Below are positions 41,201-44,900 of a stretch of DNA of 64,000 nucleotides, piece after piece. Position numbers and translations under genes: made by a program. Source of the DNA: Flavobacterium limnophilum (lineage in GTDB: Bacteria; Bacteroidota; Bacteroidia; Flavobacteriales; Flavobacteriaceae); contig NZ_CP114289.2 of assembly GCF_027111315.2 (NCBI RefSeq), positions 3,410,001 through 3,474,000 on the forward strand, in the 5' to 3' direction. The notes under the pieces are model-generated. The model had not been told where the DNA came from, did no database searches, and was given only the letters and a program-made list of their open reading frames with translations. The first letter of the stretch is position 1, and every line of letters begins with the position of its first letter.

Positions 41201-41943
41201 GGAATGCTCACTGCTGTCGCTGAATTGAAGTTCAATGCTGGAGTGAAAGTAATCACTCCTGCTGCATCTATGTTGACCGTTCCGTTGGTTACCGCAATCA
41301 CTTGCGCCGTTCCCGGTGTCAAGGTGGTTCCGTTGATGGATTGGATGCTCAAGGTATCGCCATCCAAGTCGGTGTCGGCTGTTAATGGGTTTAGCGTTAC
41401 CGTCCCTTCTTCGGCCACGGTGTAGCTGTCGTCAACCGCCACTGGAGCATCGTTGGCCGGGCTTACCGTGATCAATTCGTTGGCCGTGCTGCTACCGCCG
41501 TTTCCATCCGTGATGATATATGGAATGCTCACTGCTGTCGCTGAATTGAAGTTCAATGCTGGAGTGAAAGTAATCACGCCGGCTGCATCTATGTTGACCG
41601 TTCCGTTGGTTACCGCAATCACTTGCGCCGTTCCCGGTGTCAAGGTGGTTCCGTTGATGGATTGGATGCTCAAGGTATCGCCATCCAAGTCGGTGTCGGC
41701 TGTTAATGGGTTTAGCGTTACCGTCCCTTCTTCGGCCACGGTGTAGCTGTCGTCAACCGCCACTGGAGCATCGTTGGCCGGGCTTACCGTGATCAATTCG
41801 TTGGCCGTGCTGCTACCGCCGTTTCCATCCGTGATGATATATGGAATGCTCACTGCTGTCGCTGAATTGAAGTTCAATGCTGGAGTGAAAGTAATCACGC
41901 CGGCTGCCGTGATGTTGACCGTTCCGTTGGTTACCGCAATCAC
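32236..41943 (-). CDS. Giant adhesin, C-terminal fragment with T9SS sorting domain
   Basis: A 3235-aa frame opening at GTG 41943, which is really an internal valine of a repeat unit (VIAVTNGTVNI). It holds 21 full 107-aa units, the 3' part of the frameshifted unit and a final divergent 106-aa unit. Then come two 108-residue units with DPSGAFTG (34069-34716), four 95-97-residue units, each with Cys pairs in TICTVATPSVCDTAT (32916-34068), and a DUF11/DUF7507-like domain (KPSIAIIKTATFNDENADG). The terminal gliding-motility-associated C-terminal domain (type B, TIGR04131 style) has VSPNGDGDNDVFYIRGLE, VEIYNRWGVLVFE and GTYYYILRY. There is no signal peptide, so as a separate product it would stay in the cytosol. 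The stop lies 47 bp before the PorP/SprF-like start. Confidence 0.75.
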   Translation of the reverse strand: MIAVTNGTVNITAAGVITFTPALNFNSATAVSIPYIITDGNGGSSTANELITVSPANDAPVAVDDSYTVAEEGTVTLNPLTADTDLDGDTLSIQSINGTTLTPGTAQVIAVTNGTVNIDAAGVITFTPALNFNSATAVSIPYIITDGNGGSSTANELITVSPANDAPVAVDDSYTVAEEGTVTLNPLTADTDLDGDTLSIQSINGTTLTPGTAQVIAVTNGTVNIDAAGVITFTPALNFNSATAVSIPYIITDGNGGSSTANELITVSPANDAPVAVDDSYTVAEEGTVTLNPLTADTDLDGDTLSIQSINGTTLTPGTAQVIAVTNGTVNIDAAGVITFTPALNFNSATAVSIPYIITDGNGGSSTANELITVSPANDAPVAVDDSYTVAEEGTVTLNPLTADTDLDGDTLSIQSINGTTLTPGTAQVIAVTNGTVNIDAAGVITFTPDANFNSATAVSIPYIITDGNGGSSTANELITVSPANDAPVAVDDSYTVAEEGTVTLNPLTADTDLDGDTLSIQSINGTTLTPGTAQVIAVTNGTVNITAAGVITFTPDANFNSATAVSIPYIITDGNGGSSTANELITVSPANDAPVAVDDSYTVAEEGTVTLNPLTADTDLDGDTLSIQSINGTTLTPGTAQVIAVTKGTVNIDAAGVITFTPALNFNSATAVSIPYIITDGNGGSSTANELITVSPANDAPVAVDDSYTVAEEGTVTLNPLTADTDLDGDTLSIQSINGTTLTPGTAQVIAVTNGTVNIDAAGVITFTPDANFNSATAVSIPYIITDGNGGSSTANELITVSPANDAPVAVDDSYTVAEEGTVTLNPLTADTDLDGDTLSIQSINGTTLTPGTAQVIAVTNGTVNIDAAGVITFTPDANFNSATAVSIPYIITDGNGGSSTANELITVSPANDAPVAVDDSYTVAEEGTVTLNPLTADTDLDGDTLSIQSINGTTLTPGTAQVIAVTNGTVNITAAGVIAFTPALNFNSATAVSIPYIITDGNGGSSTANELITVSPANDAPVAVDDSYTVAEEGTVTLNPLTADTDLDGDTLSIQSINGATLTPGTAQVIAVTNGTVNIDAAGVITFTPALNFNSATAVSIPYIITDGNGGSSTANELITVSPANDAPVAVDDSYTVAEEGTVTLNPLTADTDLDGDTLSIQSINGTTLTPGTAQVIAVTNGTVNIDAAGVITFTPDANFNSATAVSIPYIITDGNGGSSTANELITVSPANDAPVAVDDSYTVAEEGTVTLNPLTADTDLDGDTLSIQSINGTTLTPGTAQVIAVTNGTVNITAAGVIAFTPALNFNSATAVSIPYIITDGNGGSSTANELITVSPANDAPVAVDDSYTVAEEGTVTLNPLTADTDLDGDTLSIQSINGTTLTPGTAQVIAVTNGTVNITAAGVITFTPALNFNSATAVSIPYIITDGNGGSSTANELITVSPANDAPVAVDDSYTVAEEGTVTLNPLTADTDLDGDTLSIQSINGTTLTPGTAQVIAVTNGTVNIDAAGVITFTPALNFNSATAVSIPYIITDGNGGSSTANELITVSPANDAPVAVDDSYTVAEEGTVTLNPLTADTDLDGDTLSIQSINGTTLTPGMAQVIAVTNGTVNITAAGVITFTPALNFNSATAVSIPYIITDGNGGSSTANELITVSPANDAPVAVDDSYTVAEEGTVTLNPLTADTDLDGDTLSIQSINGTTLTPGTAQVIAVTNGTVNIDAAGVITFTPALNFNSATAVSIPYIITDGNGGSSTANELITVSPANDAPVAVDDSYTVAEEGTVTLNPLTADTDLDGDTLSIQSINGTTLTPGTAQVIAVTNGTVNIDAAGVITFTPALNFNSATAVSIPYIITDGNGGSSTANELITVSPANDAPVAVDDSYTVAEEGTVTLNPLTADTDLDGDTLSIQSINGTTLTPGTAQVIAVTNGTVNIDAAGVITFTPALNFNSATAVSIPYIITDGNGGSSTANELITVSPANDAPVAVDDSYTVAEEGTVTLNPLTADTDLDGDTLSIQSINGTTLTPGTAQVIAVTNGTVNIDAAGVITFTPDANFNSATAVSIPYIITDGNGGSSTANELITVSPANDAPVAVDDSYTVAEEGTVTLNPLTADTDLDGDTLSIQSINGTTLTPGTAQVIAVTNGTVNITAAGVITFTPDANFNSATAVSIPYIITDGNGGSSTANELITVSPANDAPVAVDDSYTVAEEGTVTLNPLTADTDLDGDTLSIQSINGTTLTPGTAQVIAVTKGTVNIDAAGVITFTPALNFNSATAVSIPYIITDGNGGSSTANELITVSPANDAPVAVDDSYTVAEEGTVTLNPLTADTDLDGDTLSIQSINGTTLTPGTAQVIAVTNGTVNIDAAGVITFTPALNFNSATAVSIPYVITDGTTTATANELITVTPVNDAPVAVNDTNTIIPSTAVATAINALVATDLDGTIANYTILSLPANGILALSGMAVIINQVLTPVQAAMLTYDPSGAFTGNDSFVFTATDNEGALDISPATIVIPVGNNAPVANDNANAGISSAAGATLIAPLTATDTDGTIVSYTILSLPSKGVLALSGTVVAINQILTPAQVAMLTYDPSGAFTGEDLFTFTATDNNGSLDVTPATTTIVINPSVDATDDVATTVPGGVITTIPSLFANDTVNGNPFTPSQVTLTTLPIGGGILMNADGTITVPANAPSGSYPVTYTICTVATPSVCDTATTTVVVNPSIDATNDVIPVSVAGGVVTTTASLFGNDTVNGNPFTPSQVTLTTLPIGGGILMNADGTITVPANAPSGSYPVTYTICTVATPSVCDTATTTVVVNPSIDATNDVIPVSVAGGVVTTIPSLFANDTVNGNPFTPSQVTMSTLPIGGGILMNADGTITVPANAPSGSYPVTYTICTVATPSVCDTATTTVVVNPSIDAINDVAATVPAGVVTVLPTLYANDNVNGNPFTLSQITLTVLQPIGGGIVMNADGTVTVPANAPSGTYAVNYTICTVATPVVCDTATKTIIVDEKPSIAIIKTATFNDENADGYAQAGETISYVFAITNTGNVVLSNVTVEDNYLPDVILTGSPIASLGIGETNSNAYTATYAIKQNDINMGSIKNQAMVTATSLNGTIVTDLSDNTNILDDKPTVMGVSGCLIEVFNAVSPNGDGDNDVFYIRGLECYPKNSVEIYNRWGVLVFERSGYNNSDRAFKGISEGRVTVNQSEELPEGTYYYILRYQDSASTGHEKAGYLYINR
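32916..34068 (-). repeat. Four tandem 288-bp (96-aa) repeats in the adhesin C-terminal region
   Basis: Units begin VDATDDV, IDATNDV, IDATNDV and IDAINDV and end VVVNPS or IIVDEKPS. Conserved core: NGNPFTPSQV, IGGGILMNADGTIT, VPANAPSGSYPVTYTICTV, SVCDTAT. Unit lengths are 95, 96, 96 and about 97 residues. Copies 1-3 are nearly identical, the fourth is more diverged. Each unit has two cysteines about ten residues apart, able to form a disulfide outside the cell. Confidence 0.85.
34069..34716 (-). repeat. Two tandem 324-bp repeats between the main array and the 288-bp repeats
   Basis: Two 108-residue cadherin/Ig-like units with shared words ILSLP, LTPVQAAMLTYDPSGAFTG or LTPAQVAMLTYDPSGAFTG, and FTATDN. 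They are clearly diverged from each other, unlike the main array. Confidence 0.8.

Positions 41944-44900: not shown

Follow-up and report, generated by a model that had tools for sequence, protein, structure and literature searches.

A giant, repetitive adhesin gene of Flavobacterium limnophilum was analyzed in a window of 64,000 nucleotides (assembly GCF_027111315.2, contig NZ_CP114289.2, positions 3,410,001 to 3,474,000; positions given without a contig are those of the window). In this assembly the gene does not form one continuous frame with both export signals. It is broken at 41940-41943, where two large minus-strand frames overlap by the four bases GTGA within a tandem repeat array (Table 1). 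This overlap inside one repeat unit, described in an earlier note on the same DNA, was confirmed by the coordinates of the open reading frames (ORFs) and by the sequence. The GTG "start" of the downstream frame is a valine codon of the repeat motif AQVIAVT and is therefore no sign of a second gene. Restoring one base gives a joined frame of 8806 codons, which agrees with the length stated earlier, by arithmetic from the outer ends only (26,417 bases between them plus one, divided by three). The protein is composed of a unique N-terminal part (GEVED, Ig-like), 60 repeat units, more Big_9 domains, DUF7507 and a CHU_C/type B sorting domain.

Table 1. Features of the adhesin locus, in window coordinates (T9SS, type IX secretion system).
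Feature	Coordinates	Strand	Description	Basis
Signal-peptide-like N-terminus	58560-58652	minus	two lysines, hydrophobic stretch, AQA-like end	judged by eye
Upstream frame	41940-58652	minus	5570 aa, ATG start; signal-peptide-like N-terminus, GEVED and Ig-like domains, units 1-37, part of unit 38	ORF list
Downstream frame	32236-41943	minus	3235 aa, GTG start; remainder of unit 38, units 39-60, more Big_9, DUF7507, CHU_C/type B C-terminal domain	ORF list
Tandem array	34720-53978	minus	60 units of 321 bp (107 aa), Big_9/cadherin-like	unit spacing and profile matches
Unit 5	52374-52694	minus	321 bp, local sequence of unit 38 in full	unit comparison
Unit 38	41782-42101	minus	320 bp, sole odd-length unit of the array	one base missing in C run, plus strand 41946-41947
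Unit 53	36967-37287	minus	321 bp, otherwise identical to unit 38	pairwise unit alignment
15-unit block	39535-44348	minus	units 31-45, contains the short unit	unit types
Sister 15-unit block	34720-39534	minus	units 46-60, without the short unit	unit types
CHU_C/T9SS type B sorting domain	32245-32535	minus	PF13585 positions 1-86 of 86; TIGR04131 above cut-off	profile search
PorP/SprF-family shuttle	31262-32221	minus		PF11751 E 2.3e-94; TIGR03519 E 2e-89
PorE-like protein	29299-31251	minus		OmpA and PD40 above cut-off; TPR and carboxypeptidase-regulatory below

The spacing of the repeat units was measured along the array. The script fixed the length of the last, divergent unit (60), leaving 59 measurable spacings; 58 of them are 321 bases and one, that of unit 38, is 320. 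When unit 38 was compared with the 59 other units, the best partner was unit 53, with 0 mismatches and one gap in the C run (unit positions 155-157), and the next-best partner showed 2 mismatches plus the gap. The GG at 41946-41947, which the earlier note had set against a full copy 4815 bp away and a related full unit near 52538, was thus found as described: unit 38 is unit 53 minus one base, and unit 5 has the identical local sequence at full length. Among units 1-59 without unit 38, 25 substitution variants were counted, each common to at least two units and none private (the divergent unit 60 was excluded from this count). The lost base of unit 38 is the only private change across units 1-59.

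The 4815-bp spacing itself evidently reflects a block duplication of 15 units (31-45 and 46-60). Of the 45 unit pairs at a lag of 15, 18 are identical; over 20,000 shuffles the identical fraction averaged 0.055 (about 2.5 of 45) and never exceeded 0.22 (10 of 45). Up to the divergent last unit, the two blocks differ only by the lost base (38/53) and by two substitutions (41/56), which convert one common unit type into another, indicating that the lesion is younger than the duplication. Within about 35 bp, all four combinations of the variants at 192-195 and 224-228 are found, which points to the exchange of short tracts between units. A search of the genome with the array unit gave 26 matches, all inside the array and none outside, and thus revealed no silent store of copies.

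Errors of noisy reads are mostly insertions or deletions (indels), and a long-dead gene is expected to collect private substitutions too. The private change here is indel-only, and similar faults were seen in similar arrays of other assemblies, as detailed below. Because of this lone indel without any private substitution, together with the array survey, we favor the reading that the missing base is a residual consensus error and that the adhesin gene is intact, with a probability of roughly 0.7; the weights given to all readings are judgement, not calculation. The gene would be whole in the living cell, and the base would have been lost in the consensus of a 19-kb array of near-identical units, in which reads are difficult to place and polishing is prone to failure. 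Short reads derived from an intact unit of this type would align better to unit 5 or 53 than to a faulty unit 38, so that polishing could hardly repair it; the reads themselves would be expected to show a full-length unit 38. A similar case is tal2b of Xanthomonas oryzae BLS256, in which, according to the cited part of the report, a one-base frame break within repeats was judged a reference error and turned out to be a base-calling error (PMC4853030). There the base was inserted and came from unresolved trace peaks, whereas here a base is missing. Singleton frame breaks are treated as likely indel mutations or sequencing errors in the cited part of another study (PMC3711429).

Adhesin arrays were surveyed in genomes of one or two contigs, nearly all single-contig. 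Most arrays were chosen beside PorP/SprF matches, and L028, L196 and L197 were selected via other matches. With at least 5 copies, a 90% match and a 100-bp period as criteria, 658 unit spacings in 32 listed arrays of 18 genomes were obtained, this genome included. From two sets of 20 loci each, L158, L164, L166 and L177 of the first and L186 and L193 of the second were excluded for having no frame of at least 1000 aa beside PorP, and no qualifying array was present in G112, L159, L160, L162, L167, L181, L187, L189, L191, L194 and L197. The 32 include one G036 array that was entered twice (L183/L184) and a 125-bp array of L190 lying outside the adhesin frame; neither was counted as a fault. Odd unit lengths were found in 5 of the 18 genomes, that is, in 4 of the 17 others and in this one (1 of 59 spacings). 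The most affected array, of 318-bp units in genome G213 (C1:29487-69486), has 11 odd spacings of 75. Its deviant units carry 36 deleted bases and 1 inserted base; 14 of the 36 belong to one unit of 304 bp and may have been lost in one event. Nine faults were listed with their positions, and eight of these cluster within about 5 kb, which would be hard to explain as gene decay. The ninth is an isolated unit, one base short and without substitution relative to its nearest normal unit, as in unit 38. G213 is a public single-contig genome, and its array is likely to hold a fault of the consensus. G073, whose array has the same period, shows no odd unit among 64; in that genome (C1:30422-70421), a PorP-linked repeat gene has a frame open over 39.85 of 40 kb, comprising at least 13,284 codons and continuing beyond the edge. 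Odd spacings also make up 6 of 24 in G269, a genome that is 86% complete, and 2 of 13 in one array of G036. In the F. davisii record (L028:18789-21485), 4 of 8 spacings of the second array are 307 rather than 306 bases, which repeatedly breaks the frame, and none of the 28 in the first array is odd. Odd units elsewhere look at least in part like plain noise; that they are errors is itself something we infer.

The genome comprises 4.51 Mb in two contigs, and the second contig, C2 (1-6776, 6,776 bp), is a degraded ribosomal RNA (rRNA) operon. Its 16S gene scored 1164 bits against 1529-1530 for the six chromosomal copies and differs from the majority by 82 substitutions and 24 insertions, and its transfer RNA genes scored 48 against 66-68 for the chromosomal copies. 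C2 is thus probably a leftover contig of noisy reads, and its degradation suggests that the reads were noisy. The chromosomal 23S copies differ by 1-25 substitutions and 0-3 deletions, which may be natural or erroneous. At two places (C1:4403500-4416100 and C1:2199900-2212700), a pair of complete rRNA operons lies in direct head-to-tail order, about 6.7-6.8 kb apart; these pairs could be real or an assembly doubling. A read or assembly error, offered previously as an alternative, is the better explanation on the lone deletion, the odd units elsewhere and the degraded rRNA contig, though not a proven one.

Several observations weigh against a consensus error. Apart from that of unit 38, all 58 spacings of this array are exact, in contrast to the noisy arrays elsewhere. 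Three Cs in a row make a weak hotspot for errors. The degradation of C2 may stem from another cause, and the six chromosomal 16S copies are of equal length, differing by 0-5 substitutions and no indels. No intact sibling protein was found among the 120 matches listed of 262 (965 scored candidates), so that an intact gene has no support from a second assembly; after the protein itself, the best of the matches listed are 5200-6832 aa long, with 46-50% identity over 12-13% of the query. Finally, the unique DNA of this genome was clean as tested, since only the adhesin break and one in bioB held among 19 candidate frame transitions.

The scan for frame breaks behind this last point covered 760 kb of the genome, including the window. 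A coding-potential hidden Markov model (HMM) made one call, bioB, and none in 400 kb of the relative G051; its sensitivity was low (28 of 83 test deletions), and a version retrained for the test missed bioB. A second detector, which recovered 78 of 90 test deletions (60 of these in the class without a nearby ATG), reported 57 same-strand frame transitions, 38 with a nearby ATG, not checked individually, and 19 without. Of these 19, one is the break in the window, two lie at bioB, one belongs to a GTG-started gene, and 15 were judged by eye to be separate genes or spurious frames. The first scan, for frame pairs in 767 kb, had given 42 abutting same-strand pairs, in 5 of which no ATG lies close to the junction (those of the window and bioB, and three more). 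A frameshift rate could not be taken from G051, as only 21 proteins were shared at 50% identity or more over 400 kb, which was too few. Across the genome, none of the 19 family matches to CHU_C and 8 to PorP_SprF contains an internal stop, and two further arrays of this genome, of 261-bp and 153-bp units, lie by coordinates inside open frames of 2978 and 2935 residues.

The break in bioB (L138:2287-3333; C1 from about 3592286) was also considered as a bad consensus, a candidate that was dropped on account of a 38-bp deletion relative to a relative (alignment L144); further indels are present. The first part of the gene was matched in 172 of the 199 genus genomes searched, this genome counted, and its four closest matches have uninterrupted frames of 365-371 codons. 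Because of the deletion and these intact frames, bioB is judged to be a true pseudogene.

These results bear on the possibility that the adhesin lesion is real, a very recent one-base slippage that arose, for example, in laboratory culture. The sampled unique DNA yielded no further confirmed break of the error type, a true pseudogene with a 38-bp deletion is carried by the same genome, a 26-kb gene is a large mutational target, and the lesion arose after the 15-unit duplication, all of which would fit a fresh mutation. On the other hand, neither a private substitution nor a second lesion accompanies the lost base, and at least some of the odd units elsewhere resemble noise. We therefore consider a real loss unlikely, while giving it some weight. 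Its consequence can be predicted from the secretion system: T9SS substrates are described, in the cited parts of two reports, as having a Sec signal plus a C-terminal domain (CTD) (PMC12618676; PMC9143113). The upstream product of 5570 aa would begin with a Sec-type start but lack the sorting domain. For the downstream product the reverse would hold, a sorting domain being present and a Sec signal absent. By these rules neither could be displayed, and the upstream piece would not reach the surface. The earlier note's claim that surface display is abolished would thus follow if the loss were real; what does not stand is the loss itself as the likelier event, an assembly error being more probable. 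Unequal exchange deleting the short unit could reverse a real loss by chance, without a regulated switch.

A precedent for a real loss is BadA of Bartonella henselae, which resembles the present protein in being a giant repetitive adhesin with repeat reshuffling and with frameshifts in some isolates; in the cited part of that study, 2 of 8 strains lack expression owing to frameshifts (PMC8859334). BadA differs in being a trimeric autotransporter rather than a T9SS substrate, and that study compared long reads from eight isolates.

The earlier note had further proposed that gene conversion from the intact sister unit might provide an on/off switch. The combinations at 192-195 and 224-228 and the nearly unchanged 15-unit duplication do suggest that the short unit could be lost or copied. 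However, no feature was found that would make the off state recur. The C run at the break has three bases and is not hypermutable, and single-base runs in the array reach four bases at most. Unit 38 is the sole short unit, a second state was not seen, and the genome has no match to the unit beyond the array. The literature on phase variation and pseudogenes in Flavobacterium T9SS adhesins, and that found by broader searches, showed no such switch among the papers listed, judged by titles and abstract starts. A reversible switch through exchange between array units is thus very unlikely, and the proposal was not upheld. There is equally little to recommend a recombination-gated variant that dispenses with a hypermutable tract, in which a one-base fault silences the adhesin of about 8.8 thousand residues and array exchange removes or respreads it. 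If it were true, heritable surface variants would arise at a rate set by array length.

The compact overlap of stop and GTG might also suggest programmed ribosomal frameshifting or translational coupling across the GTGA. Inspection by eye revealed no slippery heptamer at the site, and the site is not conserved among the units, since unit 38 alone is short. Moreover, the GTG is a valine codon of the repeat, and a coupled downstream product would be without a signal peptide. Such decoding is hardly to be expected here.

The division of the export signals between the two frames, with the Sec signal upstream and the T9SS CTD downstream, is borne out by profile matches for the CTD, and by eye the N-terminus of the upstream frame resembles a signal peptide. 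The sorting domain scored 38.8 bits with TIGR04131 (cut-off 35) and 93.8 bits with PF13585 (cut-off 27), the top score among the 19 CHU_C matches of the genome. The database entry P0003 is 5549 aa long, 21 residues shorter than the upstream frame; its length suggests a gene call that starts later and cuts away part of the signal peptide. For the N-terminus, the three best named relatives are from Flavobacterium (61, 56 and 44% identity in the best segment), and matches in other phyla are weaker and mainly cover repeat-like parts.

The reading frames of both neighboring genes are open. The adjacent PorP/SprF gene scored 300 bits with TIGR03519 (cut-off 90.55) and, from its position, is presumably the cognate partner of the adhesin. 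For the PorE-like gene, the carboxypeptidase-regulatory and TPR scores fell short (30.3 of 32.3 and 20.2 of 23.5), and the PorE model NF052230 gave 360.9 bits, below its cut-off of 600. With the gene intact, the adhesin would be exported via Sec and the T9SS, with PorP/SprF and the PorE-like protein as the partners that hold it.

The locus resembles Fjoh_3952-3951-3950 of F. johnsoniae in the order of adhesin, PorP/SprF and PorE-like genes, in the type B CTD and in predicted static anchoring; the difference is that here the adhesin frame is interrupted in the assembly. In the cited parts of two reports, this gene order is linked in F. johnsoniae to type B substrates thought to be statically anchored to the cell wall (PMC9143113, PMC12618676). 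Because the order matches, the likeliest role would be that of a static adhesin, probably held at a fixed place on the cell surface. The gliding adhesin SprB with SprF is also, according to the cited part of its description, a giant repetitive type B CTD protein with a cognate PorP/SprF (PMC9143113), but here a PorE-like gene follows. A separate, uninterrupted CHU_C frame of 8354 aa, with its own PorP/SprF gene alongside, lies at C1:3738754 and upstream and is perhaps the sprB of this genome.

If the loss were real after all, this would be a further giant adhesin silenced by frameshift, like BadA. With odd units in 5 of 18 genomes, split giant adhesins should be checked against the reads before a pseudogene or a switch is named. 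In giant bacterial adhesins, an apparent break within near-identical repeats can be mistaken for biology.
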